From positions 1 through 55,209 of IMG/VR virus record IMGVR_UViG_3300049846_001695: a stretch of DNA of 55,209 bases; one strand, given 5' to 3'. Below are positions 13,057 to 41,622 of this stretch, one piece after another; within the stretch, counting starts at the first letter, position 1, and each line of letters begins with the position of its first letter. The stretch comes from a virus. The translations under genes were made by a program, and so were the position numbers. Under the pieces are notes generated by a model, which searched no databases, had not been told where the DNA came from, and saw only the letters and a list, made by a program, of their open reading frames with translations.

Positions 13057-14797
13057 TTTCTAGTCCGGTGCTTTTCATGTAGTGAGCAGAGTCTACGGCT
13101 TCTTGACGCTCTAGGGCGCTATCTCTTTCAAATACTACTACACCTCCGACAGTACCGAGGACTGCCGAAATGGAGATAGAGTTTCTTAGTGCTTCAAGTA
13201 CGGCTGGGGTCGAGTCTAGCAACCCACTGACGTAGGGGTCAACAAAAGTCTGCGTAAACCCATCAAATGACTTGCCGTTGGGACCAGAGTTTTCTACAAT
13301 TTCTTTAATCTTTTCTTCTACTTCTTGGGCGTTAAGTCCGCAGTTCTCAAGTAGTTTCTGGATTGGATACAGAAGCGACGGTTTAACAACGGCTTCAAAT
13401 ACAGTTCCAGAACCCATCTTGCTTAGATGCGCCAGAATATTACCACCGCCCGGCAAACACCCCTGCTTGATAGCTCCTCTTACTGCCGCAATCGCATCCT
13501 CTGCTCTGTCTTTCTTTTCTCGTAATTCTCCAGAACTTGAACCTACCACTACTAGCTTTGCGATTCCGCCATTAAGTCTTGCTATTCTATCTTCTAGGAA
13601 GTGAGCATCGTATGAGCTAGCGGCTTCTGATAGCGCCTGCTTGAGTTGTTCTGCTCTATATTTTACAATTTCTGGTTCACAAAGACCGTGTATTACAGTC
13701 TTGAATCTTCCCATTTCGATCTTTTTGATTCCATACCCCAAGTCCGATAGTTCACCATTGTTGAGTGGTGCAGTAATTGGGTCAAATATCTTTGCTCCAG
13801 TTACGGCAGCAAGGTCTTCAAGAAAATGCTGCTCAGAATTCTGGATTCCTGTTCTTGGACAGATCATGGGAACAACGTTTAACGCTTCTGGCGTTGCTGT
13901 GTTTGTTCCGAATACTGAAAGAACTGACTCGGAGAAGTCTGGTGCTACAACTACAACATTGTGAGAAAAGGGCTTGCTTAATCCCACCTCTTGCGGGCGC
14001 TCCCAAGCGGTTCCTATTTTCTCCATTAATAGCTGTACCGAACCAAGGTCGGTTAATGGCATACTGTATAGGACAAATACTGGGTCTTCTAATGAAACCC
14101 TGTTATTCGCTCTATCGTTAATGAAAAGATTTAAGAACTTTTTGCAAGACTCTTCATAGCCAGTTTCTACGGAGTATCCCTCTATATGCTCGACAGCATA
14201 CTCTGAACGGCCAGATCTTTCCGTAACAACGATTGCGCCGTCGTTTCCTACGATATCAAAACATTTCATTACTGCGTCTGCAAGGTCTGTATCTCCGTTG
14301 GCGGATACCTTTGCTACACTGTATGCATCTTGCTCCGTTATTTTAGTTTTTGAGCACTTTAAGATTTCTGGCTCAAGCTGTTCCTTGAATATTTTCTCAA
14401 GCTCTCGCGTAACCTTCTGAGGGGTGATTCTTTTGTCGCTTTCGCATAGATTCATCAGGTTCTTAACGAATGCATAAGAAAGGACTGTCGCTGTAGTCGT
14501 TCCGTCACCGGCCTTTGCCACGGTTTTAGTAGAAGCATCTCTGGCAGACTCCATGATAGCGTGAGAAACCGGGTCTTCAAACCCTAAAGACCTAAAGACG
14601 GTAACGCCGTCTTTTGTTAGAATGTTTGGCAATCCATATTCTTGACGCTCAATAAGAACTGGTCTGCCAGAAGGCCCTAGCGTTGACCCAACGACATCTG
14701 AAATTACCTTCAAAGTAGATAAGGTCTTTTCCTTAAGTTCTTTTGGATCGTGAATTATTATCTTCGCTGCCGATTTCGCCTTTTTGTAAGAGTTCAT
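13049..14797 (-). CDS. groEL: GroEL-like chaperonin (Cpn60 family)
   Basis: The 582-residue group I chaperonin subunit is slightly longer than host GroEL (about 548). ATP-binding motifs are present: GSTLGPSGR (37-45), TKDGVTV, and AGDGTTTAT (96-104). The catalytic region RAEDAIAAVRGAIKQGCLPGGGN corresponds to the GroEL Asp-398 region and GGG turn. There is no Gly-Gly-Met tail. Phage chaperonins are known in some large phages and are thought to fold phage proteins. A GroES-like candidate lies at 18968 on the other strand. The start has no clear Shine-Dalgarno sequence and sits 2 bases from the previous stop, suggesting coupling. Confidence 0.93.
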   Translation of the reverse strand: MNSYKKAKSAAKIIIHDPKELKEKTLSTLKVISDVVGSTLGPSGRPVLIERQEYGLPNILTKDGVTVFRSLGFEDPVSHAIMESARDASTKTVAKAGDGTTTATVLSYAFVKNLMNLCESDKRITPQKVTRELEKIFKEQLEPEILKCSKTKITEQDAYSVAKVSANGDTDLADAVMKCFDIVGNDGAIVVTERSGRSEYAVEHIEGYSVETGYEESCKKFLNLFINDRANNRVSLEDPVFVLYSMPLTDLGSVQLLMEKIGTAWERPQEVGLSKPFSHNVVVVAPDFSESVLSVFGTNTATPEALNVVPMICPRTGIQNSEQHFLEDLAAVTGAKIFDPITAPLNNGELSDLGYGIKKIEMGRFKTVIHGLCEPEIVKYRAEQLKQALSEAASSYDAHFLEDRIARLNGGIAKLVVVGSSSGELREKKDRAEDAIAAVRGAIKQGCLPGGGNILAHLSKMGSGTVFEAVVKPSLLYPIQKLLENCGLNAQEVEEKIKEIVENSGPNGKSFDGFTQTFVDPYVSGLLDSTPAVLEALRNSISISAVLGTVGGVVVFERDSALERQEAVDSAHYMKSTGLENA

Positions 14798-20591: not shown

Positions 20592-21171
20592 AAAGGAAGA
20601 TGCAATAGTCAAGGTAGAACAAGAGGCGCTAGAGCAATGGCAGAAGAAGCGTGAGCAGCACCTAACTCTTGATCAGTCAATGGCTTTATACGAGCATTAT
20701 CTAAACGGCCACTCCGTAGAGGAAATCTTCCATCTTAAGAACGGTAAAATACCCTTTGGTCAAATAGTAGACGCCAAGCAGAGGTACGAGTGGGATAGAA
20801 GAAAGAATACTCAGTTATCCAATTTGTATAAAAAGGTCGAAGAGCGTGCGGTTAAGGCGAAGGCCGACGCTGTTTTTCTACTTACGGACGCACTGGCTAT
20901 CGCCAAGAAACAGCTTGGAGATAGATTTAGAAAGTACATGGAAACCGGAGATGAATCACATCTCGGAACATTGGACTTGGCAAACCTCAAGAACTATAAA
21001 ATGATCTTAGAAATGTTACAGCTTTTGACTGAACAGAACAAGAATCAAAAAGAGGTTTCTGTTGGTGGCGTTGTAACACACCAACACAACGTTTCTGTCG
21101 ATAGCGTTAAGGCATCTGATCTATTAAGGCTTTTTGACGAGGGCAAAATAATAGACGGTGAGAAGAAATGA
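20584..21171 (+). CDS. Probable terminase small subunit
   Basis: Of 195 residues, about 27-65 (LDQSMALYEHYLNGHSVEEI) look like a helix-turn-helix. A long helical part follows (75-150) and the tail is basic and hydrophilic. It lies directly upstream of, and overlaps by 4 bases, the large terminase, the standard position for the DNA-recognition subunit. No sequence family can be assigned by eye, so the call rests on position and the DNA-binding-like N-terminus. Confidence 0.65.
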   Translation: MSKKEDAIVKVEQEALEQWQKKREQHLTLDQSMALYEHYLNGHSVEEIFHLKNGKIPFGQIVDAKQRYEWDRRKNTQLSNLYKKVEERAVKAKADAVFLLTDALAIAKKQLGDRFRKYMETGDESHLGTLDLANLKNYKMILEMLQLLTEQNKNQKEVSVGGVVTHQHNVSVDSVKASDLLRLFDEGKIIDGEKK

Positions 21172-23567
21172 CCCCAATTCAGGAACAGATTTTAAGATCC
21201 GCCCTCTTTGTCCCATGCGATTCCAAAGAGGACTTGCATAGGTGGATTAAGATATATTTAGGAATGGATCTCCCCAATACAATCGTCTGCGACGATGAAA
21301 GACACCACCCTCCCTCAAACTCATCTCCAATGGATTTAGTTTGGGAGATATACCAAAAGGCTCGTCTTGGTCTTGACCCGGATTTTCAAGAGATTCTAGC
21401 CTATGCTGCCCGCGAAAGCGGCAAGACTGTTTCTGCTTCCATTATAGAAATTTTGTGCATTATCCACTTGGGAAGAGATGTGGTTCACTTAGCCGCCATT
21501 GAACCGCAGGCCAAATATTGTCTTGATTACGTTAGAAAATTCCTATCAAGACCTATTTTAAAGGAATTCGTTACTTCTACCAATAGAAGAGGATTGAAGT
21601 TTTCCAAGTATATAAGCGATAAAGATCCAAACGTCGTTATATCCCCGGTACAGTGGGAGTCCCTCGACCCAGAGACAAAAAAGACGTTCTCGGAAAGCAA
21701 AAACGAAATATTCTTAACTGTTGCCACGGTCGAAGCGTGTAACGGCCTCCACGCTCCGTTTATGTGTGTAACCGGCGACAGCAGGGTAATTCTCGAGAAT
21801 TTAGGCCCCGTTCCGATAGAAGATGTTATAGCCGACTCAATTGGCGGAAAAGCATCTCTTGTTGGGGAATTCAAGGTTGAGCCCACAAAGAAATTCAAGA
21901 TACTGTCGTGGCACCCAGAGCTTGAAAAATTTGAATTCAGGGAGATCAAAAAGGTCTTTAGAAGAAAAGCTACAGACGTTATAAAGGTTAAATTCTCAAT
22001 GACTTCTTGGGGGTCGGAGAAGAAAACATTTTCTACGATAGCCTGCACCAAAGATCATCAATTTTATTGTGTCCCGCCCAAAACCAGCAGCGTTAAAGGC
22101 TTTTGGATTCCGGCAAGAGAATTGAAGCCGGGATTTGAGCTATTCAGCGTTTTTGATAAATGCAAAATAGAATCCGTAACAAAGACAGAGAACACCGATT
22201 GGGTTTATGACGTAGAAATAGAAGAAACGCACAACTTTGTTTGCGAAGACGTTGTAATCCATAACTGCATGGATGAGCTAGATCTAGTCGATCCAGCCGC
22301 CTTCATGGAAGCTAAGAGTATTCCTACGTCAACGGTAGATAGAAAGTATCCAATTACGTTTATGACGAGCACCAGAAAGTATTCATACGGTCTGGTGCAA
22401 AAAGAAATTGATAGAGCCTCTACTGAAGATACTAGACTGAACATTAGACACTGGAATCTCATAGATATTACAGAGTCTTGTCCACCGCAGCGTCACCTCC
22501 CAGAAGAACCGAAAATTGAAATATTTGTAAATGAGGAATACCTAAAGGCTTTATCAAGAGAAGAGTACGAAACGCTCTCCGACAAGGAAAAGCAGGGATA
22601 CGAGAGTTACGATGGGTATGCTGGCTGCCTATCTAACTGCAAAATGTTCGCCGCCTGCAAGGGGCGTCTTGCAACGAAGCAAACCTCCCAAAGCCCGATG
22701 CTTAAGAGAATTGACCACACCCAATCAAATATTAGAAAGGTGTCTCTGGAGCACGCCAAGGCACAATATTTGTGCTGGAAGCCCTCTACCGCCGGTCTTG
22801 TGTTCCCGCATTTTGATAAGGAAAAGCACGTTATAACAGCCGCAGAAATGGCGAAACTGGCGACCGGAGATGATTTCGACAAGAATTTCTCAAAGGCCGA
22901 TTTGATTAAACTATTCAAGGATTTAGATGCAGAATTCTATAGCGGGATAGACTGGGGTTTTTCTCACAATTACGTTGTTGTTACAGCCGCTATGCTTGGG
23001 CATATTTTGTACGTTATAGACGTAATCGTGGGCGGCGAACTATTGCTTCCAGATAAGATAGACATAACAAAGAAACGCATAGGATATCTAAGTCCAACAG
23101 TTTTCCCAGATAACGCATATCCGGCTGACATTAGATCATTTAGACTGGCGGGATTTAAGATGATTGACTTCAGGAAGGACGTTCTAGAAGGCATCACCGC
23201 CGTATCTGAAAGACTTTATTCAATGCAAGACAAAAATCCTACCATCTGGTTCCTCAAGGATGATCCGGGCGTAGATTTCTTAACAAAAGAAATATCTCTG
23301 TACCACTGGAAACTAGATAAGGCAGGCAACTTACTGGATGAACCAGATAAGGTGGATGACGATAGCGTCGATGCTCTCAGATATTTGTGTCAAAACCTAC
23401 AAATAGGCAAGTCTAGGTTCGTAAAGATAGCTAAGGAACAAGAAACCCAGAGAAAGCCGACGATGTTACAGACATTTGTAAAGGATAAAATCAAGGAGCT
23501 TACTCGGGACGAAGTAGAGGAGATGCCTCAGTTAAAGGGTGGTCCCGGTTTCAAGTTTATTATTTAA
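21168..23567 (+). CDS. terL: Terminase large subunit interrupted by an intein
   Basis: The 799-residue precursor has an ATPase with Walker A ARESGKT (81-87) and a Walker B split by an intein: the extein reads FM before residue 200 and CMDELD from 367. The nuclease domain has SGIDWGF (D595) and a C-terminal acidic DDDSVDALRY set. After splicing the enzyme would have about 632 residues, normal for TerL. Cysteines C487, C491 and C497 (CLSNC, AAC) may bind zinc. The enzyme pumps DNA into proheads and cuts it. The start overlaps the small-subunit gene by 4 bases. Confidence 0.94.
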   Translation: MTPIQEQILRSALFVPCDSKEDLHRWIKIYLGMDLPNTIVCDDERHHPPSNSSPMDLVWEIYQKARLGLDPDFQEILAYAARESGKTVSASIIEILCIIHLGRDVVHLAAIEPQAKYCLDYVRKFLSRPILKEFVTSTNRRGLKFSKYISDKDPNVVISPVQWESLDPETKKTFSESKNEIFLTVATVEACNGLHAPFMCVTGDSRVILENLGPVPIEDVIADSIGGKASLVGEFKVEPTKKFKILSWHPELEKFEFREIKKVFRRKATDVIKVKFSMTSWGSEKKTFSTIACTKDHQFYCVPPKTSSVKGFWIPARELKPGFELFSVFDKCKIESVTKTENTDWVYDVEIEETHNFVCEDVVIHNCMDELDLVDPAAFMEAKSIPTSTVDRKYPITFMTSTRKYSYGLVQKEIDRASTEDTRLNIRHWNLIDITESCPPQRHLPEEPKIEIFVNEEYLKALSREEYETLSDKEKQGYESYDGYAGCLSNCKMFAACKGRLATKQTSQSPMLKRIDHTQSNIRKVSLEHAKAQYLCWKPSTAGLVFPHFDKEKHVITAAEMAKLATGDDFDKNFSKADLIKLFKDLDAEFYSGIDWGFSHNYVVVTAAMLGHILYVIDVIVGGELLLPDKIDITKKRIGYLSPTVFPDNAYPADIRSFRLAGFKMIDFRKDVLEGITAVSERLYSMQDKNPTIWFLKDDPGVDFLTKEISLYHWKLDKAGNLLDEPDKVDDDSVDALRYLCQNLQIGKSRFVKIAKEQETQRKPTMLQTFVKDKIKELTRDEVEEMPQLKGGPGFKFII
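21765..22265 (+). other. Mini-intein in the terminase Walker B site
   Basis: Residues C200 to N366 (167 aa) of the precursor form a Hint domain: Cys1 followed by VTGDSRV (block A), ACTKDHQF with the block B histidine, WVYDVEIEETHNFVCEDVVI (block F) and the terminal HN before extein C367 (block G). There is no LAGLIDADG or HNH endonuclease insert, so this is a compact, immobile splicing element. Insertion immediately before the catalytic DE means unspliced terminase cannot hydrolyse ATP. Confidence 0.93.
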
Positions 23568-24598: not shown

Positions 24599-26566
24599 AT
24601 GAGCAATAAAGGTAAAGTATTTTTCGTAGATTCTAATTTGGATCAGGAAAAATTAGAAAAATCAGAACAGAACGATGGGTGGTTTACGGAAAATCCATTG
24701 GCTAAGTCTTTAATTGCCTCGCTAAGAGGCAAGCAGAAGGCGCAAGCCATAGCCTTTTCTGAAGATCCGCAGGAAAGTAGGTATCATAGTCTATACATAG
24801 ACAAAAACAACACTCCTTTATTGCCCGACACCATCATAAAAAGAACGTCATATATTGACGATCTTATTGCAGCGATCGTAAGAGGTCGCGCAAACCACAT
24901 TTCTTCGTTTGGTACAATGTTACCAGATAGAAAGTCTATGGGATATCGTCTTGACCCGGAGAAAAATAGTAACTTTGACAAATTGCCGTTCGAAAAGAAG
25001 GCAGAGCTAATCAAGGAATCTATACGAGTTTCTAAGCTTCTCGCATCATGCGGGAATCTAGAGGGGTTAGATGATAGACAAAAACAAACCTTCTCAGAAT
25101 TTTTGTATGTATCGGCAGCTAACGCTGTTAGATTCGGCAGAATCACCACAGAACTAATTAAAGATTCTGGCGGCAAGTTCTGTGGGTTTAGAGCAGTAGA
25201 CCCAAGCACCATTTATTTTGCTAGAAAAAACTCAACAAGCACGAGTGCAAAGGTACTAAGAGAGCAAGCGTTTAAGCTTTTGCAGGAAATAAAGAAAGAA
25301 ACTGTTATAGATCCGCAAAAGTACGCTAACGATGAGTATGCGTTTATTCAGGTAATTAATGGAACGCCCCGTCACGCCTTCACGGATGACGAAATGGTTA
25401 ACTTCAATTTCTACCCTACAACAGACTTTGAAACAAACCATTATCCCATTACACCAATAGACACAGTTATCAATGCTATCATAACTCACGTCAATATTAC
25501 TCAGCACAACAAGCTGTACTTCCAGTCTGGTAGAGCAACCAGAGGAATGCTTGTTATCCAATCCGAATCGGTTAACGACTCTACGTTAGAGCAGCTAAAA
25601 CAACAGTTTCAGGCATCTATTAATGGAGTCCAAAACTCTTGGAGAGTGCCGGTAATTAGCGTAGGAACCAACGACAAGGTATCTTGGCAGTCCATTGACG
25701 GTCAGGGTCGTGATATGGAATTCCAGTATTTGTTCGACTCAAATATTAGAATCATCCTCGCCGCGTTCAATATGTCTCCCGACGAATTGCCGGGATATAA
25801 CCACTTAAGCAAGGGCACAAACAATCAGTCGTTGTCAGAAAGCAACAACGAGTATAAGCTACAGGCGGCAAGAGATGTTGGCATTAGACCACTACTCTCG
25901 ACAATGGAAACATTCATTAACTTGAAGCTTATTCCATTGTTTAATCCAGAACTTTCAAGGTACTTTAAATTCAAGTTTTACGGCTTAGACGCCGAAACCC
26001 CAGAGAAGGAAGCCTCTAGAATTGAGGCGGAACAAAAGCTATGGGGCACAATGAACGACACACTAAGAAGTGTCGAAAAGGAAGAAATCCCAGCCCACCT
26101 TGGCGGCGATTTTCCATTGAATCCAGTATATCAAGCGGTAATCTTTCAGTGTCTAACAATGGGAGAAATACTGGAGCACTTCTTTAAGAAAGAGGGGGCA
26201 TCCAAGGATAAGAGATGGGATTATGTTAGAGACAACTTCTACTTCCAGCATATTTCCATGATTCAGCAGCAGGAGATGGCACAACAACAGCAGCAAATGG
26301 CGCAGCAGGCAGCGGCTCAACAAGCTCAAGGGCAGCCGCAGCAGGGGCAAGAGGGACAACAACAGCAGCAACAGGGCGCTCCCCAGCAACAGCAACCGCA
26401 GGGCGACCCAGATGCCCAGAAGCTCCAGACGGGTATTGACCAGCTTATAAATACTTTGTCAAAAAGTGAAGCATTCAAATCTTCTGTTAGGGCGCAGCAA
26501 GAAAGAATAGTGGAGTCAATTTTAGAAGAATTCGAAAAAGGATTAGATGACTTGATCAAGGATTAA
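24599..26566 (+). CDS. Portal protein
   Basis: The 655-residue protein has portal-type features: a long helical N-terminal half, a central clip/stem region with DEMVNFNFYP and YPITPIDTVINAIITHVNI, then NIRIILAAFNMSPDEL and NQSLSESNNEYKLQAARDVGIRPLLSTME, the pattern of the conserved portal core helix. It follows the terminase and precedes a MuF-like protein, the standard order. About 45 residues (557-600) are almost pure Gln, Ala, Gly and Pro, likely a disordered linker. The tail carries LSKSEAFKSS, part of a recurring motif in this window. The portal forms the dodecameric DNA gate. Confidence 0.88.
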   Translation: MSNKGKVFFVDSNLDQEKLEKSEQNDGWFTENPLAKSLIASLRGKQKAQAIAFSEDPQESRYHSLYIDKNNTPLLPDTIIKRTSYIDDLIAAIVRGRANHISSFGTMLPDRKSMGYRLDPEKNSNFDKLPFEKKAELIKESIRVSKLLASCGNLEGLDDRQKQTFSEFLYVSAANAVRFGRITTELIKDSGGKFCGFRAVDPSTIYFARKNSTSTSAKVLREQAFKLLQEIKKETVIDPQKYANDEYAFIQVINGTPRHAFTDDEMVNFNFYPTTDFETNHYPITPIDTVINAIITHVNITQHNKLYFQSGRATRGMLVIQSESVNDSTLEQLKQQFQASINGVQNSWRVPVISVGTNDKVSWQSIDGQGRDMEFQYLFDSNIRIILAAFNMSPDELPGYNHLSKGTNNQSLSESNNEYKLQAARDVGIRPLLSTMETFINLKLIPLFNPELSRYFKFKFYGLDAETPEKEASRIEAEQKLWGTMNDTLRSVEKEEIPAHLGGDFPLNPVYQAVIFQCLTMGEILEHFFKKEGASKDKRWDYVRDNFYFQHISMIQQQEMAQQQQQMAQQAAAQQAQGQPQQGQEGQQQQQQGAPQQQQPQGDPDAQKLQTGIDQLINTLSKSEAFKSSVRAQQERIVESILEEFEKGLDDLIKD

Positions 26567-27250: not shown

Positions 27251-29269
27251 ATGAAGGAATTGCACCCCAAAATAGAAGAAGTTCTCAAATTTCCAAGCCA
27301 CGGCACCGTTATTGACGGGGTTTTTGCGTCAGAAGCTATTGATACATCTGGAGAAATGATTGACATTAAGGAGATGGACATAACAAGTCTTAATGACGGA
27401 TCTGGTGTGGCAAATACCGAGCACATCAATCCAGAAGATAAGCAGTTCAAGGAAGCGAAGGCGGAAGATGCTGGTCAATGGGCGGTCATTGTTGGGCGCG
27501 TTATTTTTGCGAAAAAAATATTCTCAGAAGATGATTGCACTAGTGAGCGCGAACTGGCGTTCTGGAATGAAGTTAAGCTACCGTTCATATATGGAGCCGT
27601 AGAATTATTTGATTCAGATGGGCATCACAACGCTCAAGAGCTTGCGGCTACAATCTGGCACTATCACAAGAGAAAGCTACCCGTCGTAGCGCGTTATAGC
27701 ATTGAAGGATCTACGGTAGATAGAGATGGGCACATTTTAAGACCCACGATTGCCCGCCGCGTAGCTATTACTATTAAGCCATGTAATCAGGCTGCCGCGT
27801 CTTCTTTGGTTGAGAGAACAAACGTTCCTCCAAAGCATTTTAAGAAAGACAAAGAGCTTTCAAAGATTGAACAAATTGGTACATTTGAAACGGAATCGTT
27901 CCCGCTAGTATTTAGCTCTACAACCGACGATCTATTTGGCGCAGTATCCGATTTGAAAAAAGCCTTTGAGCTTGGCGGTGGCGATGTTGCCCCATCCGCA
28001 AGGACTGGAATGGCGGCATTGGCCTCCGAAACTACGCCAGAACACCAAGAGAAAAAGAGAAAGAAAAACGAGCTTAAGTATAGGCTTATGGCTGCCATGA
28101 GAGATTGGAATAGAATGACTCCAATCAAAGAACACCTTAAGCACGAACTAAGGGATGTACATGACTCCTTTATCGACAAATTCTCGGAAATGGCGGAAGA
28201 AATAGTTCTTTCCAAGAAAGAGGTTGAATATAAGGGTAATATGGTCAGACCGGGCGAAGCAATGATTCTTGCCGGTCCATTCGCGGGGTCTTCGCTGCCA
28301 ATCCTTCATCTTGATGAAAAGCACGCGCACGTTCAGTCATTTAAGTCCGGTGGTCAAGAGGCGGCAATAATCAATAAGTTATCTACTGCCACACTAGGTT
28401 CACATTGGGCAATAATTACTCACCCGAAGCTTTCTAGCAAACCCAATTTGCCGGAAGACGTTAAGGATTTAAATAGACTCCCCGCTCAGACACTTCTGCT
28501 ATATCACCTAGACCTAAATAACAAAATCGTAACAAAGACTTCTACGCACGGGGATGACGGTGCTGGCTGGTATTTGAATGGTATGTCAAAGCACGTCTTT
28601 GCAAAACCAGAAATAGAATCAGTACACGATGATGTAAAGAATCTATCTACCGCACAAAGAGAGGTAATTTTCTATCTCGCATCTGAAGAGTTTTTTGGAC
28701 TCGGGCGCTCCGTTCCAGTTACGGCACTCGTAAAAAATACGAAGACTGAGAAACTAATGTCAGTTATAGAAAAATTTGACGGCTCTCATTTCTTCTCAAG
28801 TCGTCCAGACGCTACTGGAGTAAGGACCGTAAAGCAGGCTGGTAATTCTGGAATTCTCGAGAAAATGGCAATAATGGATGTCATTATGGGGAATTGTGAC
28901 AGAACCAAGCTGAACTACATGGTTAACGGCGAACAAGTCGCCCTTATCGACAATTCATTTATATTCAATTTCAGAGATGAAATAATCCCAGCGTACATTT
29001 TGGACTACGCCCACCTGATTGGTCGCAAGCTATCTGAAATTTTGTTAAAGCAAGAAACGATAGACTGGCTTGGATCGTTAGACGCATTCAAGCTGAAAGA
29101 ATATTTAGAGTCGCTTGGGGTTCCAGAGGAATTTGCTACAGAGTCGTCAAAAAGACTTCTAAGTATGCAAAGCTGTCTATTCAAAACCAAGCTGGATCTT
29201 AATAGTATATTAATGTCCCATTTCTCTTTTGTTAATCCGGTGAAGCCAAATGAAGAAGCAAATATATAA
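27251..29269 (+). CDS. Prohead protease fused to a kinase-like domain
   Basis: Of 672 residues, 18-185 match XkdF-type prohead serine proteases: IDGVFASEAIDTSGEMID, H58 in NTEH, ARYSIEGS with the probable nucleophile S150, and VAITIKP. A linker (195-330) carries KELSKIEQI and LKKAFELG (235-242), a motif also at the capsid N-terminus. Residues about 430-660 have the kinase-like core MDVIMGNCDRTKLNY with D550 and N555, then VALIDNSF with D567, as in HipA/PI4K-like folds. The usual His after DR is Thr here. A protease with a kinase-like tail is unusual. The protease should mature the head. Confidence 0.82.
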   Translation: MKELHPKIEEVLKFPSHGTVIDGVFASEAIDTSGEMIDIKEMDITSLNDGSGVANTEHINPEDKQFKEAKAEDAGQWAVIVGRVIFAKKIFSEDDCTSERELAFWNEVKLPFIYGAVELFDSDGHHNAQELAATIWHYHKRKLPVVARYSIEGSTVDRDGHILRPTIARRVAITIKPCNQAAASSLVERTNVPPKHFKKDKELSKIEQIGTFETESFPLVFSSTTDDLFGAVSDLKKAFELGGGDVAPSARTGMAALASETTPEHQEKKRKKNELKYRLMAAMRDWNRMTPIKEHLKHELRDVHDSFIDKFSEMAEEIVLSKKEVEYKGNMVRPGEAMILAGPFAGSSLPILHLDEKHAHVQSFKSGGQEAAIINKLSTATLGSHWAIITHPKLSSKPNLPEDVKDLNRLPAQTLLLYHLDLNNKIVTKTSTHGDDGAGWYLNGMSKHVFAKPEIESVHDDVKNLSTAQREVIFYLASEEFFGLGRSVPVTALVKNTKTEKLMSVIEKFDGSHFFSSRPDATGVRTVKQAGNSGILEKMAIMDVIMGNCDRTKLNYMVNGEQVALIDNSFIFNFRDEIIPAYILDYAHLIGRKLSEILLKQETIDWLGSLDAFKLKEYLESLGVPEEFATESSKRLLSMQSCLFKTKLDLNSILMSHFSFVNPVKPNEEANI

Positions 29270-29705
29270 AGGAGTTTTTAAGGTTTACGATAGAAAAACC
29301 GGATCTGTCCATGATAGGCTTTTAGCAAGATTTTCTTGTGACGGAGGAGAATTTAAGATCCTAGAAGACCACTTGGGTATTTTTGAGGACTCATTGCCAG
29401 AAGGCGAGATGACAGATCTTCACTTTAAGTTTTTGGACTCAATTAGGACATCACCGTATCTTCGTCTTTTGTCTGAGGAACAAATAAATAGCGGCGAACA
29501 CGATGATATGATAGACGATCTTGATATAATGGCGCAGCCAAAGCACGAGTTTTTGCTTTACGACGAAAAAACAAATGAAGAACCAATCAAGGTTCACGTT
29601 TTTGATAGTAACTGGGTCGTAAACGGGAAACAACTTCTACCTCACGAGAAAGATCTTTTAATTAAAAGAGTTCAGGGTGGCGAACTAACCATTCACAACA
29701 TATGA
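29250..29705 (+). CDS. Hypothetical companion of the protease-kinase gene
   Basis: This 151-residue acidic protein has no recognised family. The C-terminus NWVVNGKQLL...GGELTI loosely resembles EWFIDGNKAT...GHGTI in the small gene at 41810, which also follows a kinase-like gene. It begins 20 bases inside the protease-kinase gene with AAGAAG and overlaps the GGDEF-like gene by 4 bases, so the three are coupled. It may modulate the neighbouring enzyme, but this is only inference. Confidence 0.65.
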   Translation: MKKQIYKGVFKVYDRKTGSVHDRLLARFSCDGGEFKILEDHLGIFEDSLPEGEMTDLHFKFLDSIRTSPYLRLLSEEQINSGEHDDMIDDLDIMAQPKHEFLLYDEKTNEEPIKVHVFDSNWVVNGKQLLPHEKDLLIKRVQGGELTIHNI

Positions 29706-30379
29706 AAAACTTAGAACAAATTTACGCAATGGATAGGTCTTTAAAGGAGGCACTATCCGACTTAAAGAAGGCCGATAAGACTGCCGCAAAAAAGATTGCA
29801 AAGCATCTTTTTACGGACACACTCTGCCCTTGGGTCGGGAATAGGGCTGCCTATAACGATTTTCTATCTAGACACAAATATCATGGATTCCATGTTTCTG
29901 TAGATTTGAACAGTTTTTCTGAAATAAACAACAGGTATGGACACTTGGTAGGAGATGATGCAATAAAGATCTTTTTCAAGATATCTAGTGAAATCTCTAG
30001 AATGTTAAAGGGCAAGAACTTCAGAGTTGGCGGTGACGAAAATCGCCTGTTCTTTAACGACAAGGCAACCGCAGAAAAATATTCTCAAGAACTTAAAGCA
30101 AGACTATCTAAGGAAAAGGTCAGAGATTTTCAACTGTCCGCATCCGTTGGTATTGGATATACTCCAGAACATGCCGAGGCTGCATTAAAGAAAGCCAAGG
30201 AACAGCTAGGAACAGAAGTCCAGTACGAAAAGGTACGAAACTTTAGGTCTGGCGAGGAGCCCACCGTAATTGTAACTCTTCTTAACGAAAGTCCACCAGC
30301 AAGCTGGTCCCCGGTTGTTGAGAAAGTTTCAAACGACGATAAGAAGGGAATGCTTAAGATAGACAATCCTTTAACTTAA
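29702..30379 (+). CDS. GGDEF-like (diguanylate cyclase-related) domain protein
   Basis: The 225 residues contain a GGDEF-type fold: DTLCPWVGNRAAYNDF (like D.LTGL.NR..F), VDLNSFSEINNRYGHLVGDD (metal D68 and the nucleotide-binding N/D pattern), FRVGGDENRLFF with GGDEN (110-114) in place of GGDEF, and SASVGIGY then AALKKAKEQLG. GGDEF enzymes make cyclic dinucleotides. The first four signature residues are kept and the fifth is Asn. An N-terminal helix (1-35) precedes it and a short tail follows. Its location among head genes is unexpected. It could synthesise or bind a nucleotide signal. Activity is unproven. Confidence 0.8.
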   Translation: MKNLEQIYAMDRSLKEALSDLKKADKTAAKKIAKHLFTDTLCPWVGNRAAYNDFLSRHKYHGFHVSVDLNSFSEINNRYGHLVGDDAIKIFFKISSEISRMLKGKNFRVGGDENRLFFNDKATAEKYSQELKARLSKEKVRDFQLSASVGIGYTPEHAEAALKKAKEQLGTEVQYEKVRNFRSGEEPTVIVTLLNESPPASWSPVVEKVSNDDKKGMLKIDNPLT

Positions 30380-30671
30380 GGCACTGTTTACATACCCCCT
30401 TTCTACCATAGAATGCCATGAGCAATAGCGGCTCGTGGCATTTTTTGCATTTTTTGATACCAACTCCCATAAGACACTTCTTGCACCAGTGTTCTCCCTG
30501 CCCCTCCCTTATTCCACAGTTTTTGCACTTATTCCGTAGAAGAAAGTTATTTCTAAGCTCTCTTTGTTTCTTACGGCACTCCTTACAGTAGAAGCTCCTG
30601 CCACGGGAATTTGAGGATTTATGGAAATTGCTTTCTGGTAATAGAAGTTCACAATCAGAGCATTTAATCAT
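30354..30671 (-). CDS. Six-CxxC zinc-ribbon protein (endonuclease VII/HNH-associated type)
   Basis: A lone minus-strand gene among plus-strand head genes, 105 residues. It has six CxxC pairs (C4/C7, C29/C32, C49/C52, C63/C66, C75/C78, C94/C97), which pair into three four-Cys zinc sites. The first, KCSDCELLLPESNFHKS...YCKECRKKQRELR, resembles the zinc ribbon in front of phage endonuclease VII/HNH proteins, but no nuclease motif follows. Its 3' end overlaps the GGDEF-like gene by 26 bases, convergently. No Shine-Dalgarno sequence is obvious. The regular cysteine spacing makes coding likely. The function is unknown. Confidence 0.75.
   Translation of the reverse strand: MIKCSDCELLLPESNFHKSSNSRGRSFYCKECRKKQRELRNNFLLRNKCKNCGIREGQGEHWCKKCLMGVGIKKCKKCHEPLLLMAFYGRKGVCKQCLKLKDCLS
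30412..30446 (+). terminator. Rho-independent terminator after the GGDEF-like gene
   Basis: AATGCCATGAGC pairs with GCTCGTGGCATT (12 base pairs with one G-U), with a 7-base loop, followed by a run of Ts. It should end plus-strand transcription from the head operon. It lies entirely inside the coding sequence of the antisense zinc-ribbon gene, in a segment coding for KCHEPLLLMAF. Confidence 0.85.
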
Positions 30672-32260: not shown

Positions 32261-33667
32261 ATGAACGATATTTTAACAAAAATAGAAGAACTTAAGAAAG
32301 CATTCGAATTAGGTTCTTATAACATGGCACCTACCCAGTTGAATCAGGGTAGTGCGGTACAGAAAGAAGATCTTTCGAAGATCATGCATGTTGTAACATT
32401 TGGTGAGAAAGACATCAAGTTACAAAAGGAAGTAAAGGTTGAGAAGGCTAAGGGGCAACTCTTCCAGTTTAACCGTCTATTGTCATACGGTACATTCGGT
32501 GGAACCGCTATGGGTGAAGGTTTGATTGGTCAAGAGGAAACTCCTGACATCATCCGTGCAGCAGTTCCGATGGCTTATTACTCGCTAATGACCCGGCCTA
32601 CACTAGCTGCAACAATGGCTGAAACTTTCGACGGCGTATCAGCCGAAGAGAGAGTAGCTATGGCAGCGGCGATGAAGATTGCCGGTGACGTTGAATTCGA
32701 CCTTTTCAGAGGAAAGGCTGACTTCTCTAACGCAGGCGTATTTGATGGTGCTCCAGAAGCAATCCCTCAACTACCTAACATAGTAGGTCTTGACGTTCAA
32801 GTACGTCAGTCAGACTATTCACTAGATACACAGGACTTAATGTTCGAAGCATATGGTTCTGGATTATCAGTAATCCTATCTGGTGGTGGTACGCTTGTTC
32901 AGTCAACAATCGAAGATGCTTGGATTCGTGGTGTAATGAACTTCTCCAAGGCTGACAGAATGTTTACTGATCCACTAGTTCTATCGAACTACAGCAAGAA
33001 TGCATACGCTTCAAAGGAGCGTTTCAATCTTGGATCAACTGCACAAGAGCCAGTAACGGGTGTCGATATTCGTAGACAGGCCGTTTCAGGTGGTGTAGTA
33101 ACACTAGAGCCAAGCCGTTTCCTATCTGGTCAGACCAAGTGGAAGCGTGCTCGCGTTAACTCACCCGGCGCTCCTTCAGTTGCGCTAAACGGTCAGGTAG
33201 CAAGCTCAACCACATTCCTAAACGGTCAGGTTTACAACTACGTTGTAACTGGTGAAAACGAACTTGGTGAGTCACTACCTTCCGCAGCACTACAGGTAAC
33301 AATCTCCGCTGGCGGAAACCTAGTTAACCTAGATATTACTGCCGGAACTGGTTCTGCTCGTTACTTCAACGTATTCAGAACAGGAGCAGGTGGCGCAGTA
33401 GCAACTGCTAAACTGGTTGGTCGCGTAAAGGCAGCAGTAAGCGGAACTACTCGTTTCGTTGACCGCAACAACCGCCTACCCGGCGCGCAGCCCGCATATC
33501 TAGTAGATATGGAATCAATGGGTATCCACGAACTAGCCCCTTACTCAAGAATCAAGCTAGCCGTAACTGACCTAACCCAGCCAGAAGGTCACTTTAGGTT
33601 CCTAACCCTAGCCGTATACGCTCCTCGTAAGAACGTGCTAGTAGACAACCTAACTGGCGCATTCTAA
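32261..33667 (+). CDS. Major capsid protein with Ig-like insertion
   Basis: This 468-residue protein has capsid-like composition: few Cys, many Ala, Gly, Val and Thr. AGGAG lies 7 bases before ATG. The start contains LKKAFELG (11-18) and QKEDLSKIM, both shared with other head proteins, so the N-terminus may be removed by the prohead protease. Residues about 300-405 (SVALNGQV...YNYVVTGENELGES...YFNVFRTG) look like an Ig/fibronectin-type domain inserted near the C-terminus, a known decoration on HK97-fold capsids. The call is from position, length, composition and strong downstream terminator. Confidence 0.86.
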   Translation: MNDILTKIEELKKAFELGSYNMAPTQLNQGSAVQKEDLSKIMHVVTFGEKDIKLQKEVKVEKAKGQLFQFNRLLSYGTFGGTAMGEGLIGQEETPDIIRAAVPMAYYSLMTRPTLAATMAETFDGVSAEERVAMAAAMKIAGDVEFDLFRGKADFSNAGVFDGAPEAIPQLPNIVGLDVQVRQSDYSLDTQDLMFEAYGSGLSVILSGGGTLVQSTIEDAWIRGVMNFSKADRMFTDPLVLSNYSKNAYASKERFNLGSTAQEPVTGVDIRRQAVSGGVVTLEPSRFLSGQTKWKRARVNSPGAPSVALNGQVASSTTFLNGQVYNYVVTGENELGESLPSAALQVTISAGGNLVNLDITAGTGSARYFNVFRTGAGGAVATAKLVGRVKAAVSGTTRFVDRNNRLPGAQPAYLVDMESMGIHELAPYSRIKLAVTDLTQPEGHFRFLTLAVYAPRKNVLVDNLTGAF

Positions 33668-33724: not shown

Positions 33725-33754
33725 TTGTCTTGAGGACTGTCGTGAGTCTATAAT
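33725..33754 (+). promoter_or_regulatory. Sigma70-like promoter before the GMP reductase-like gene
   Basis: TTGTCT (33725-33730), an 18-base spacer, then a perfect TATAAT (33749-33754). It starts right after the terminator. The -10 overlaps the first possible ATG (33753). The second ATG, 33762, lies 7 bases after the -10, so a transcript could begin at that codon with no leader. Confidence 0.55.
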
Positions 33755-34847
33755 GGGCTACATGAAAATTCTTGACAAGCAGTTTTTCACCTACGATGAT
33801 TTACTTATTTATCCACAATTCTCAAGAATAGCCTCAAGGTCTGATATAGACACTACGGTAGAATTCGGAGAAACAGAAAAAGAGCCCCCAATAAAGCTTT
33901 CTAAGCCAGTTATTGCAGCAAACATGGACACCATTTGCGAGCAAGATATGGCGATTGCCATGTGGCAAGCTGGTGGTATCGGATTTCTGCACAGATTCGC
34001 TCCAATAGAAAAGCAGATTGAATGGGTAAACGGCGCAACAAAGCGCGGGTGTGTTGCGATTCCATCTGTCGGGGTCGATCCAAATAAAAAGCTAGACGCT
34101 TTATCAATTTACGATGAAACGGGCGCAAATATTTTTTGTTTAGATATAGCGCACGCCAATAATACGGCGGTTTTGGACTTATTGGATTTCTACCACTCTC
34201 GATGCCCACAAATCTTCTTTATTGTCGGGAATATTGCCTCCCCTTCTCCAGAGTTATTTAAAAGGCTTTACCCGTCTAAGCGACGCAAATATTTCTCCTA
34301 TCCAGTAAACGAAGGTGGCAACATTATAGGTTTAAAGGTAGGAATTGGGCCGGGTAGCGCCTGTGAAACAAGAGTCGTCGCTGGCGTTGGGGTTCCTCAA
34401 GCCAGTGCAGTTGCGAATGTTGCTACGGCACTCAAGGAAAAGGGCGAAAGAACTTTTATTATAGCAGACGGAGGAATTCGACAGCCAGCCGATATGGCAA
34501 AAGCCATTGGGTTGGGAGCATCTGCAATTATGGTCGGCGGTCTTTTTGCTGGAACCAAAGAAACCCCGCCGCTTGGCAAGAAAATGTTTAGAGGAATGGC
34601 TAGCGAAAGTGCTCAACTTGACCATCGTGGTAAGGTTTCTAACTCAATCGCAGAGGGCGCTACCTTCGATATTTCAGAGAACAACGTACCTGCCGCATCT
34701 ATTGTTGAGTCATTGACTGGCGGCTTAAGATCTGCTATGAGCTACAGTGGATGCGCTACCATTGAAGAGTTTCAGGAAAAAGTCATATTCATCAGAGTGA
34801 CGGATGCGACAGTTAGAGAAAACGGCGCTCACTTCAAATTCAAATGA
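33753..34847 (+). CDS. guaC: GMP reductase / IMP dehydrogenase family enzyme
   Basis: The 364-residue TIM-barrel protein has DDLLIYPQFS at the start, the phosphate-binding and catalytic loop GIGPGSACETR (C204), and GGLFAGT and SESAQ... near the C-terminus. GPGS rather than plain GS before the catalytic Cys is more like GMP reductase than IMP dehydrogenase, and no CBS pair is present. GMP reductase converts GMP to IMP with NADPH. ATG 33762 (MKILD) is an alternative start, 3 codons in. It heads a nucleotide-metabolism group with ThyX. Confidence is high in the family, moderate in direction. Confidence 0.87.
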   Translation: MGYMKILDKQFFTYDDLLIYPQFSRIASRSDIDTTVEFGETEKEPPIKLSKPVIAANMDTICEQDMAIAMWQAGGIGFLHRFAPIEKQIEWVNGATKRGCVAIPSVGVDPNKKLDALSIYDETGANIFCLDIAHANNTAVLDLLDFYHSRCPQIFFIVGNIASPSPELFKRLYPSKRRKYFSYPVNEGGNIIGLKVGIGPGSACETRVVAGVGVPQASAVANVATALKEKGERTFIIADGGIRQPADMAKAIGLGASAIMVGGLFAGTKETPPLGKKMFRGMASESAQLDHRGKVSNSIAEGATFDISENNVPAASIVESLTGGLRSAMSYSGCATIEEFQEKVIFIRVTDATVRENGAHFKFK

Positions 34848-35179
34848 AAGAACTAATACAGGCGGGGATAATCGCGCATTTATGGAATCCAACTGATGAG
34901 TATTTTTTTAAAACCGCCGATACAATAGAAACGCCGCTCGTGTTTGAGTTTAGCTCTGATATCTATAACAGGCTTTGTAGCGTAGCGTTTTTGATTGAAA
35001 AATTGATAGACGACGGCGGCAGAAGTGTCTCTTCCCTAGAAAAAGGCTTTTTTCTTGCCAGACTAGCCTTTTTCAAAAAAAATAATGAAGAATTGAAGGG
35101 GATTGAGGGATATAGAGACTTAAATGGCCCACTTGCAGATTGCTTAGAAGGTTTAAACAGATTATATGATCAAAGCTGA
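34844..35179 (+). CDS. Hypothetical protein
   Basis: This 111-residue helical protein has no recognised family. It overlaps the GMP reductase-like gene by 4 bases and the ThyX gene by 14 bases, so it is part of the nucleotide-metabolism operon. Segments such as NRLCSVAFLIEKLIDDGG are amphipathic helices. It might be a partner of one of the enzymes, but the sequence gives no direct sign. Confidence 0.62.
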   Translation: MKELIQAGIIAHLWNPTDEYFFKTADTIETPLVFEFSSDIYNRLCSVAFLIEKLIDDGGRSVSSLEKGFFLARLAFFKKNNEELKGIEGYRDLNGPLADCLEGLNRLYDQS

Positions 35180-35990
35180 AATTATTGCAGACTCGGTATC
35201 TCCAACTGGAGACAGAATCACCACCTATGTACTCAAGTTTCATAGGTTTATTTTACCTGAATTCAACACCCATAGGCAATTTAGCCGTAATGCCGCTAGC
35301 TCTAGAGCTATTCCTGTTAAAAAGATGCTGGATCAAGTCACTTTTGACCCAGCAATTCCAGTAAAATGGGGAAAGAATCAACCGGGAATGTCAGCAAAGG
35401 AAGTTCTTTCTCCAGAAGAACAAGAGGCTTGTCTAAGATCTTGGTTGCAGGCGCGCGATTATGCCGTCGCAACGGTTAGATCCCTCTCGGAGTCCGTTCC
35501 ACTACACAAACAGACGTTAAACAGGCTATTAGAGCCTTGGATGTGGGCTCACGTCGTAATGACTACCACACACCACCCATCTCAGCTAGATAACTTCTTT
35601 AAACAAAGAACCGCAGGGGACCAGCCCCAGCCCGAAATGCTGGAATTGGCGACAAAAATGAAAGAAGCTCTGGCCAATTCAACGCCAAATAAAATAGAGT
35701 ACGGCGATTGGCACTTGCCGTTCATTACCATATCCGATCTTGTCAGGTCAGATGTCCACCCCAGCCATTTAAAGAAAATTTCAGCCGCAAGGTGTGCAAG
35801 AGTAAGTTACTTAAACCACGATGGGACAAAAACCGATCTTGATAAAGATTTAGAGCTATATCAAAGACTGAAGACAGATTGGCATATGTCTCCATTCGAA
35901 CACCAACAGACCCCCGCTTCTGGCTGGTGGGCAAATTCTTTTGGATGGAAACAACAAAGATACTTTATTGAAAAGGGAGAAGATTTATGA
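35166..35990 (+). CDS. thyX: FAD-dependent thymidylate synthase (ThyX)
   Basis: This 274-residue ThyX-type enzyme makes dTMP from dUMP using FAD, NADPH and methylene-tetrahydrofolate. The family signature appears as THRQFSRNAASSR (H36, R37, S40, N42, S46, R47), a variant of the RHRxxSxNxxSxR motif. DWHLPF, CARVSYLNHDG and MSPFEHQQTP are further typical segments of this phage branch. It overlaps the next gene by 4 bases. With RNR and GMP reductase it reshapes nucleotide pools. No ThyA is present. Confidence 0.92.
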   Translation: MIKAEIIADSVSPTGDRITTYVLKFHRFILPEFNTHRQFSRNAASSRAIPVKKMLDQVTFDPAIPVKWGKNQPGMSAKEVLSPEEQEACLRSWLQARDYAVATVRSLSESVPLHKQTLNRLLEPWMWAHVVMTTTHHPSQLDNFFKQRTAGDQPQPEMLELATKMKEALANSTPNKIEYGDWHLPFITISDLVRSDVHPSHLKKISAARCARVSYLNHDGTKTDLDKDLELYQRLKTDWHMSPFEHQQTPASGWWANSFGWKQQRYFIEKGEDL

Positions 35991-38595: not shown

Positions 38596-41500
38596 ATGGC
38601 AAAGCCAAGCAATTCTACAGAGCGCGAACTAATGCCGGGAGGAGAGGGCGACAACCAGCCTGATTCAAGGTTTAACCCCAAGGATTTAAAAATTGGGGTA
38701 CAGACAGAGCAAAAGGAACACGGCCTAGATCCCAAAAGAGCTAAAGAGGTTGCGAAAGATCATTTAGTTAACAACCCAAAGAATTACTCTATGAAACCAG
38801 AGGATATCTTGGGGTTCATAAAGACAGCGGAAACCTACTTTAATTCTCATACCGAACTAACGAAAGAAGAGTCATTAGAAAAAATGGCTCTTATTTACAG
38901 AAACGAGTCCAAACCAACATATGTTTGGGCCGTTAGAAATAGAGATGGAAGAGGGCCATATACAACGCGCGGCCCTAGCGGGAAGCGCGTTGATTGGGAT
39001 ATTAGTCATTTAAAAAACGACAAAAGACTCAATCCCTATTCATCTGCGTTAGATACGGTTAATCCACCCCCAAACAAGGATTTAGATGATGAAGACTGGA
39101 TCGCGTTTTCGGGCTCTCCAGATAGAGAGGAGGATATTTTTCTTGGTCAGAGCAAATATGATAGGCAGTTTAAGTTTGGCTTTGAAAGACCAGAACACGC
39201 TGTAGACTGGTTCGGTGAACAGGGGTTGCGCGATTTGGCATCACAGGGATTTAAATTGGTAAAACTACCAGCCATAGAAGTTAGACGTTCATCTTCTGGT
39301 CGCCAAATCATGTATAAACCACATAAACCAACAACGTTTCAACATATGGTAGCGGCATTTCCAGAATTAGATCAGGAAACACAAATCCAGTCGCCGCAAC
39401 CGGAGCCGACCGGACTTGAACCAGCGCAAGTCCGTCCAAATCAACTCGGTCATGGGCCAACATTTAAGAGTGAATTAAATAACGATGAACTAAAAAAGGG
39501 GATAATGGCCCCGCTTGTAGTGGGAACTGCGTTAGCTGTGTCTCAAATGACACCCAAGCTAAAAGATGCTTTTGACAGAGCTACTGCACCAGTAACTCAA
39601 CAACAAAAGCCAGTAGCTCCATTTAATCCTAAAACTTTGCATCCAGATATGCACGGTATCGCCTTCCTCGAAAGCTCTTACGGGAAGAGAATGAATCATG
39701 CGGCACATTCTGGAGGAGAATTTGAAACTGCCTACGGACCTCTTGGGTTTAAGCCCTCTACGGCATTTGATGAATTTACAAAGGCAAAGCACTTAACCGA
39801 CATTTATCCACATCTAAAGGATAAGGATAAGTTTCTTGAGGAGTTTAAAAAGAACCCCGACTTCTACAATCTAGTTGCAGGAACACACTGGAACAGATTG
39901 AAGCAAGTAACTGGTTCTGTAAAGAATGCTTCATTTGCTTGGACTCATGGCCTCGGGGCATACAGAAAAGCCACGCCAGCTATTGTTGATAATGATGAAT
40001 ACGTCAACAAATATTCAAAGGTGTCAGAGTCAAAGCCTTGGGCCGCAAAGATGCAGAAGTCGGAATCGTTTAAAAAGTGGAAAGTGGGAGCAAAAACCGT
40101 AAAGGGTTCTCACGTCACTGATTTTGACTACAACCATATGCTTGAGCCCGCGCACCTTAACGGTGGATACTCCGTTAAAATAAATGAGGCAAGGCTACCC
40201 GGCTCGGATGATATTGAAATCGTAGCAAACCTTCAGCACCCAGTAAGCAGGACTCCGGTTGGCTGGGTTGGTGGCGCTATTTCAAAGTTAAATACTGGTA
40301 ATAAGCTTTTTATAGAAAACGCAACAATAAGTGCCCCCCACCGAGGCAGGGGATTTGGAAAGAAGCTTTATGAGGTTCTACTAGCCCACGCCCATAACCA
40401 CCATAACGTTATAGACGCAATTGGTGGAGTGCATTCATCTATGGCTCGCCGCGCCCATGATTCAATCAAAAGAGATTACGAAACAGGATATGAGCCAGAA
40501 AAGAATGTTGGAAAGGACTCTTTTTATTATCCAGATGAAGAGTCATGGGCTGCGACACCAGATGACGCATATGATGAAAAGTGGGGTAAGTACAGACTAA
40601 CACTCAAGATCGAAAACAATCTCTCAAAGGCTTTAAAAGAGTATGAAATGCAAGGGATTGTTGGTAGCGACGCGGCCCGTAAAGCATCGGGTTCTTCTAT
40701 TTCAAAGGTAGATCATTCGTTAATTCCAGAAACGCCACACAAAGAAAATAAACAACACTTCGAACAGCATGTAAACAAGCCTGAACACACACCACCTGTC
40801 TGGAACAGCTTAAACGCCGATCCGTTCGACAAGAAAGAGGATTACGAGCTTGGTGGAGCCGAGAAAATGGTTTTCAACATAGATAATCATAAATATCTTG
40901 TGAAATCTGGAGAAGATGCGTTTGTTGAATCAGCTTGCCAAGGCGTTTACCACGCCGCTGGTCTTGGGCATTTAATGCAACAATCTCATGTTTCTCATAT
41001 ACCCACCCTAAACGATCCACAAAAGAAGGTTCCTGCTTGCGTTATCAAATTGGATCCTAACGCATCTCTATTCATGGAATATAGAGACAGCAAACAAAGA
41101 GACTTCTCTCAACCAATTCACGCCCACAAGACAATAGAGCACTTAAGCAAGAGTGATTACGTTAAAAATCAGGCGCGTCAGTTGGTTTTGATGGATTATC
41201 TATTGGCGAACCACGATAGGCACGGTGAGAACCTAATGATCAAAAAAGATAAAAGTGGCCGTAAGCACGACCTCTTATCCATTGACCACGGCTACAGCCT
41301 AGACTATGATTCATACGCAGAAAAACTGTCTGAATACGTCTACCATACCCCATTCGCCAATATATTGTATGGTTCCGGTCCAATAAATCCAGATAAAAAA
41401 GATTACGAAGCATGGGAAAGCGCCCTAGAACCTATCGTTAAGAATAAAGCTCAAATATCTGCCGCCTTCTATAATCACCTAAGCGCATTACAAGATCCTG

Positions 41501-41622
41501 TTCAGAGAAAGCAATTCTCTGGTAGCTTTGATGTTAGACTAAGGGGTATCGAATCTCTATACAAAAAGTTAAGAGATGGTACAATAGACCAAAAACAGCA
41601 TTTTCTACACAACTATTTATGA
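38596..41622 (+). CDS. Lysozyme-like + GNAT + kinase-like multidomain protein
   Basis: This 1008-residue multidomain protein has a phage domain at about 105-240 (WAVRNRDGRGPYTTRG...FGFERPEHAVDWF) that often occurs alone. Residues 345-475 are lytic-transglycosylase-like: FLESSYG with probable catalytic E359, AYGPLGF, then HGLGAYRKAT. Residues 505-670 are GNAT acetyltransferase-like: RGRGFG (583-588) and HSSMA. Residues 740-1000 are HipA/PI4K-like: YLVK, NHDRHGENLM (D874, N879) and SIDHGYSLD (D897). It could cut peptidoglycan on entry and carry enzymes into the host, an inference. It overlaps the next gene by 4 bases. Confidence 0.72.
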   Translation: MAKPSNSTERELMPGGEGDNQPDSRFNPKDLKIGVQTEQKEHGLDPKRAKEVAKDHLVNNPKNYSMKPEDILGFIKTAETYFNSHTELTKEESLEKMALIYRNESKPTYVWAVRNRDGRGPYTTRGPSGKRVDWDISHLKNDKRLNPYSSALDTVNPPPNKDLDDEDWIAFSGSPDREEDIFLGQSKYDRQFKFGFERPEHAVDWFGEQGLRDLASQGFKLVKLPAIEVRRSSSGRQIMYKPHKPTTFQHMVAAFPELDQETQIQSPQPEPTGLEPAQVRPNQLGHGPTFKSELNNDELKKGIMAPLVVGTALAVSQMTPKLKDAFDRATAPVTQQQKPVAPFNPKTLHPDMHGIAFLESSYGKRMNHAAHSGGEFETAYGPLGFKPSTAFDEFTKAKHLTDIYPHLKDKDKFLEEFKKNPDFYNLVAGTHWNRLKQVTGSVKNASFAWTHGLGAYRKATPAIVDNDEYVNKYSKVSESKPWAAKMQKSESFKKWKVGAKTVKGSHVTDFDYNHMLEPAHLNGGYSVKINEARLPGSDDIEIVANLQHPVSRTPVGWVGGAISKLNTGNKLFIENATISAPHRGRGFGKKLYEVLLAHAHNHHNVIDAIGGVHSSMARRAHDSIKRDYETGYEPEKNVGKDSFYYPDEESWAATPDDAYDEKWGKYRLTLKIENNLSKALKEYEMQGIVGSDAARKASGSSISKVDHSLIPETPHKENKQHFEQHVNKPEHTPPVWNSLNADPFDKKEDYELGGAEKMVFNIDNHKYLVKSGEDAFVESACQGVYHAAGLGHLMQQSHVSHIPTLNDPQKKVPACVIKLDPNASLFMEYRDSKQRDFSQPIHAHKTIEHLSKSDYVKNQARQLVLMDYLLANHDRHGENLMIKKDKSGRKHDLLSIDHGYSLDYDSYAEKLSEYVYHTPFANILYGSGPINPDKKDYEAWESALEPIVKNKAQISAAFYNHLSALQDPVQRKQFSGSFDVRLRGIESLYKKLRDGTIDQKQHFLHNYL

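Follow-up and report, generated by a model that had tools for sequence, protein, structure and literature searches.

A GGDEF-fold protein in a phage head operon

The window, by which we mean the whole 55,209-base stretch analysed here (IMG/VR record IMGVR_UViG_3300049846_001695), is a fragment of a myovirus resembling Myxococcus phage Mx1, and its head operon contains a gene at 29702-30379 that encodes a genuine GGDEF-fold protein. The genes of this region run portal, a 225-residue protein, protease, a small protein, GGDEF, proteins of 161 and 316 residues, and capsid. This is the head gene order of Mx1, a contractile-tailed phage of 169,621 bp (PMC10720576), except for four small reverse-strand genes that Mx1 has in addition; the portal proteins of the two phages are 46% identical. 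The gene and the codons central to its active site are:

29702-30379, plus strand: GGDEF-fold protein, 225 residues, ATG start (Pfam, phmmer, AlphaFold2 model, structural alignment)
29903-29905, plus strand: codon of the metal-binding residue Asp68, in the D.N.F..IN motif (invariant in 28 of 28 homologues)
30023-30043, plus strand: codons of R108-V-G-G-D-E-N114, the signature hairpin (alignment of 28 domains)

N-terminal helices (residues 2-37) lead into the GGDEF domain (about 33-197), and a disordered tail starts at about residue 213. The Pfam GGDEF family (PF00990) matched the protein with E = 4.6e-11 and 43.2 bits, against a curated cut-off of 23.8, and solved diguanylate cyclases matched it in phmmer searches (best 4urq, 3.5e-6). 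An AlphaFold2 model, built from 27 family sequences with Mx1 left out, had a predicted local distance difference test score (pLDDT) of 88.1 and a predicted template modelling score of 0.82; VIA-align placed it on solved structures with Z-scores of 17.8 to 18.8 (DgcB 6tts, 18.8; 3ign, 18.7, with a root mean square deviation of 1.9 Å over 143 aligned residues; PleD 1w25, 17.8), and the model also superposed on DgcR. An earlier note, made from the letters alone, had read this frame as a GGDEF-like protein; the placement of the open reading frame (ORF), the Pfam and phmmer matches and the fold model all agree with it. The motifs which that note listed (D.L...NR..F, DLNxFSEINN, GGDEN and a terminal element of SxGIG type) are likewise present, as D39...GN47R48, D68-L-N-x-F, N76, G84-D85, R108-V-G-G-D112-E113-N114 and S148xG150xG152. 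Residue 73 is a serine, where many family members have the lysine that is common in the canonical D.D.FK..ND.

The proposal that the gene is translationally coupled to the protease-kinase gene stood only in part. The GGDEF start codon does overlap an upstream stop, in an ATGA at 29702-29705, but this stop belongs to a 151-residue gene (29250-29705) that itself shares 20 bases with the protease-kinase gene, so that coupling would run through a chain of three genes. On the opposite strand, a small cysteine-rich ORF of double zinc ribbon-like type (30354-30671, minus strand) overlaps the end of the GGDEF gene; there is a similar ORF in a relative (L005, 4055-4267, minus strand).

Protease, SMALL and GGDEF as one unit

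Relatives were retrieved from IMG/VR with capsid and portal alignments, which gave 160 loci, some sharing contigs, whereas queries with the window GGDEF protein alone, or with small alignments, returned almost no matches. By profile search, about 45 loci, about 28 of them distinct, proved to have a homologous domain immediately upstream of the capsid gene; the active-site comparison below covers 28 GGDEF domains with 39% mean column identity. The features of the window against which these loci were compared are:

24599-26566, plus strand: portal protein (context; same order in Mx1)
27251-29269, plus strand: head-maturation protease with a C-terminal PI3/PI4-kinase-like domain (domain mapping)
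27287-27856, plus strand: XkdF-like protease domain (weak matches of relatives to PHROG 1028, head maturation protease)
27950-28030, plus strand: weak copy of a capsid-type motif (KKAFELGGGDVAPSARTGMAALASE) after the protease domain (motif model)
28628-29209, plus strand: kinase-like domain of the protease protein (domain mapping)
29250-29705, plus strand: SMALL, 151 residues, constant N-terminal partner of GGDEF (fused to it in 22 loci)
32261-33667, plus strand: major capsid protein (PHROG 752; 53% identical to Mx1)
32285-32383, plus strand: capsid N-terminal motif, common to the protease protein (motif model)

Domain mapping revealed three arrangements. Protease, middle domain, SMALL and GGDEF form a single polypeptide in 11 loci (L013, L026, L032, L035, L039, L060, L076, L077, L100, L139 and L141), two of which, L076 and L077, lack the middle domain. 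In a further 11, the protease, with or without the middle domain and the kinase, is followed by a SMALL-GGDEF fusion as an ORF of its own; the genes are separate in six loci, namely the window, Mx1, L006, L008, L070 and L009. In every locus that is visible on both sides, SMALL precedes GGDEF, and either occurs alone only in cut loci; the exception is the unrelated L004, which we rejected as a member because its GGDEF domain belongs to a separate giant polyvalent protein. The window has the same layout, with SMALL directly before GGDEF, downstream of the protease and upstream of the capsid gene. Protease, SMALL and GGDEF are one conserved unit, which many relatives make as one polypeptide and the window encodes in three overlapping genes, and the GGDEF protein is almost certainly a member of the head module. 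The search for homologues beside XkdF-type proteases that the earlier note had recommended found them in many phages, and given the fusions in 11 loci the position in the head operon goes beyond mere neighbourhood.

The SMALL model was confident (pLDDT 87.6); searched against solved structures, its fold had no Protein Data Bank match at E <= 0.001 (best Z 4.2), a result that falls short of showing a new fold. A helix-hairpin-helix glycosylase-like motif was read by eye in the middle domain of the relatives' proteases, and Pfam gave no confirmation of it. Across much of the phage group, the head protease gene has the orientation opposite to that of the capsid gene and is without a SMALL-GGDEF end; such ORFs lie at about 6-8.5 kb in L014, L017, L019-L021, L029, L037, L041 and others. 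The window's late region encodes four PI3/PI4-kinase-like proteins (27251-29269, 38596-41622, 48869-50626 and 50623-51684), two of which also carry GNAT acetyltransferase domains; at the matching place, the Mx1 counterparts are annotated 'NUDIX hydrolase' and 'kinase'.

The N-terminal motif of the capsid protein, with a consensus of approximately KALEAGxYNAAPSxLxxGxALQxEDL, recurs in the protease protein throughout the phage group. Run over 15,152 ORFs, a motif model built from capsids only gave 91 non-capsid matches, 89 of them within protease ORFs, the median distance past the protease domain being 43 residues; the other two were a truncated capsid ORF and a weak match. We infer that the shared motif is a prohead-targeting or processing element, and its presence in the protease protein suggests that the module enters the prohead.

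Active-site conservation and decay

Ten residues, D39, G46, N47, D68, R108, G111, D112, G150, A165 and K166, are invariant in all 28 domains, N76 is kept in 26 and E113 in 25. GGDEF enzymes use the fourth signature residue as general base, and which nucleotide base they select depends on the residue at position 85 (PMC6456294); the former position is occupied in the window by E113, and N76 and D85 align with the N and D of 4urg, the arrangement of guanine-type recognition. Position 85 is D in 20 domains and N in eight and is never S or T, which by the criterion of the same paper points to guanine rather than Hypr-type specificity, so that Hypr-type synthesis of cyclic GMP-AMP is unsupported. 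The acids D68, D112 and E113 are in place in the window domain, which thus retains its predicted metal- and guanine-binding residues; loss of the metal-binding acids was one of the grounds for refutation that the earlier note had named.

The signature itself is less constant. The accepted set, [G/A/S]G[D/E]E[F/Y] (PMC6456294), includes 21 of the 28 family members, and the same number have F at position 114; the window, with GGDEN, does not belong to it. Homologues without GGDE, which had been named beforehand as grounds for doubt, do occur: three of the 28 aligned domains lack it and one more, L009, is degenerate throughout, so that the two refuting conditions of the earlier note give a mixed outcome. 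In the window's own clade the signature decays. Mx1 has GGDEF, the window GGDEN, and L006 and L008 have SGDKS and SGDKA, from which the general-base Glu is absent; the tree is Mx1,(window,(L006,L008)), with support of 100/98 or better, making the window sister to the degenerate pair. We read this clade as a progressive catalytic loss, GGDEF to GGDEN to SGDK, through which nucleotide binding may have persisted. One sublineage elsewhere in the family shows strong purifying selection on the domain, with ratios of non-synonymous to synonymous rates (dN/dS) of 0.04-0.08 (L082, L083, L097 and L161; approximate values, as several dS exceed 1).

Bacterial diguanylate cyclases (PleD, DgcB, WspR and Thermotoga maritima 4urg) share with the window protein the fold, the metal aspartates, the guanine-contact N and D and the Arg-x-Gly-Gly-Asp-Glu; the window protein differs in having no recognised sensory or response-regulator domain, Asn for the signature Phe, and a place in a phage head operon. 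It also has M and G at residues 101 and 104, which we take, from PleD numbering, to be the positions of the RxxD inhibitory site; no such site was seen upstream of the signature, and no product feedback would be expected there. The closest annotated protein, WNM70324.1 of Mx1 ('nucleotide cyclase', OR576727), is 44% identical over 92% of the length, likewise standalone, and lies between the protease and small genes and the capsid gene; unlike the window protein it has an intact GGDEF, and it is known by annotation alone. Mx1 also has a known host, Myxococcus, whereas none could be inferred for the window virus, because a scan of bacterial genome contigs matched only three contigs, all from metagenome bins.

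The GGDEF family was likely an active cyclase ancestrally, whereas activity of the window protein as a cyclase is somewhat doubtful. As read from its residues, the window member would be either a weak cyclase or a remnant that binds GTP or cyclic di-GMP (c-di-GMP); the domain is probably of enzymatic origin, with doubtful activity in the window phage. One alternative, which we regard as a tentative possibility, is a constitutively active diguanylate cyclase that, whether synthesised late or brought in with the head contents, raises c-di-GMP and alters host behaviour, such as surface polysaccharide or motility, or receptor display. The retention of every alignable metal- and guanine-contact position in the window protein, the lack of an RxxD site and the accepted active-type motif of 21 family members all favour it, and non-canonical AGDEF and SGDEF motifs can be active (PMC3974145); infection by phage N4 can hinge on the c-di-GMP state (PMC8669472). 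Set against it are the Asn at signature position 5, the clear degeneration of the nearest relatives L006 and L008, and the lack of any preceding sensor or activating domain of known fold.

Packaging, palm-domain relatives and possible roles

The best explanation overall, to which we give a probability of about 0.5, is that the protein is the GGDEF end of an Mx1-like head-maturation module, a cyclase by ancestry that is eroding in the window phage. The module would enter the prohead together with the protease, since that is where the protease has to work and since the capsid N-terminal motif recurs in the protease linker; we rather expect the GGDEF protein to be present in proheads at some stage. 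That C-terminal cargo not only enters but stays in the head would be a further step, and part of the module may then be ejected with the DNA. Ancestrally, a dimer of the domain would have condensed two GTP to c-di-GMP and so targeted the host's c-di-GMP signalling. Given the decay series in its clade, the window domain most likely keeps binding of Mg-GTP or c-di-GMP, with cyclisation slow or absent.

Several observations weigh against this explanation. In the window itself the motif copy is weak (E 0.024), and the GGDEF gene stands apart and has no such motif, so that prohead entry is less direct there than in the fused relatives; the motif could also be an assembly or self-cleavage element unrelated to the packaging of C-terminal cargo. 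The fifth signature residue of the window falls outside the accepted set, and a recognisable GGDEF domain is found in only 15 of 34 long relatives, which makes it inessential to head assembly in the family. This last count also bears on a purely structural use, in which the GGDEF fold would help the head-maturation complex to dimerise or dock, for instance by tethering SMALL and the protease inside the prohead, its acids being left over or acting as structural metal sites. The fixed partnership with SMALL and the protease and the existence of fully degenerate members (L009, and the SGDK of L006 and L008) would suit such a use, but we consider it unlikely: D68 and D112 are invariant despite drift elsewhere, a constancy that is difficult to account for unless nucleotide or metal is bound, and a recognisable domain is missing from more than half of the long relatives.

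The same phages carry a second palm-type protein among their late genes:

53967-55208, plus strand: second palm-type protein, running off the window end (homologous to the Mx1 gene at 33963-35369 and to the relatives' mCpol proteins)

In the window this protein has lost the catalytic DGD and GGDE, and mCpol (PF18182) gave no Pfam match over the cut-off in the window. Among the 34 long records 27 have an mCpol match, 24 of them above the cut-off, although a few weak ones are the GGDEF gene itself. Most Mx1-like phages have such a protein among their late genes (L165, 5164-6570, in Mx1; L169-L193), downstream of the capsid gene and, in Mx1, shortly ahead of the tail sheath. Many relatives keep intact DGD and GGDE-type motifs; Mx1, the window and a few others have lost them. 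GGDEF and mCpol were considered as mutual replacements and rejected as such, since nine long records contain both with their motifs intact. In Panoptes defence, mCpol makes cyclic dinucleotides that act as an inhibitory signal, as described in the consulted sections of PMC12657218 and PMC12657230, in which phage-encoded mCpol goes unmentioned. The Panoptes OptS mCpol belongs to the same palm superfamily as the GGDEF protein but to another family, and its phage counterpart is a separate late gene at another position.

The interpretation in the earlier note is partly supported: the fold, the place beside the protease and the retained acids bear it out, and that the protein makes, senses or soaks up a cyclic dinucleotide is at most a proposal. 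The link to anti-phage alarm signals drawn there is speculation, to which the mCpol-type protein adds interest. A counter-defence role, with the domain producing or binding a cyclic dinucleotide and so deceiving nucleotide-based immunity (as a CBASS decoy, a sponge or a substitute for the Panoptes inhibitory signal) alongside mCpol, could draw on that signal and on the nine GGDEF carriers with intact mCpol, but is very improbable: the mCpol proteins of the window and Mx1 are degenerate, and late expression would come too late against an early defence unless the proteins are injected. It is a long shot, too, that cyclic-nucleotide synthase domains of both kinds, GGDEF and mCpol, are head and late virion cargo of Mx1-like phages, with the GGDEF domain fused to the prohead protease, and that, injected along with the DNA, they reset the host's cyclic-dinucleotide signalling or defeat immunity based on nucleotides within the first minute of infection.

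GGDEF domains in phages, including polyvalent phage proteins, are already known (PMC5512222). Like the module, polyvalent proteins hold a GGDEF nucleotidyltransferase domain within a large multi-enzyme protein proposed to be delivered, but they are giant, as in an Acetonema prophage, whereas the Mx1-like domain belongs to a head-maturation protease module with a fixed small partner; the fused relatives, with protease and GGDEF, fit the description of several enzymes per polypeptide, and the window, with its separate gene, does not. Foldseek searches of BFVD gave structural matches to phage G gp350, an SP-15 'diguanylate cyclase', Bordetella phage CN1 and an uncultured Caudovirales protein (A0A6J5L0Y4). 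Among the papers available to our literature search, none dealt with a phage GGDEF protein in a head operon, and a GGDEF domain built into a head-maturation protease module appears undescribed.

Elsewhere in the window, genes for an IMP dehydrogenase/GMP reductase-type protein (33753-34847) and a ThyX-like thymidylate synthase (35166-35990) come right after the capsid gene, a GroEL-type (Cpn60) chaperonin is encoded at 13049-14797 on the minus strand, and a 799-residue ORF at the terminase position (21168-23567) has a weak intein-splicing match at residues 333-366, below the curated cut-off.

Even if the window protein is inactive, its family is a natural series from intact to eroded cyclases at one gene position, and the mCpol domains of Mx1-like phages are directly relevant to what has recently been published about Panoptes immunity. 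Since Mx1 is a cultured phage with a genetically tractable host, the main steps are testable. If the module is packaged, the phage head would hold a second-messenger enzyme by way of its fusion to the maturation protease, a route, of which we found no description, to early control of host signalling.
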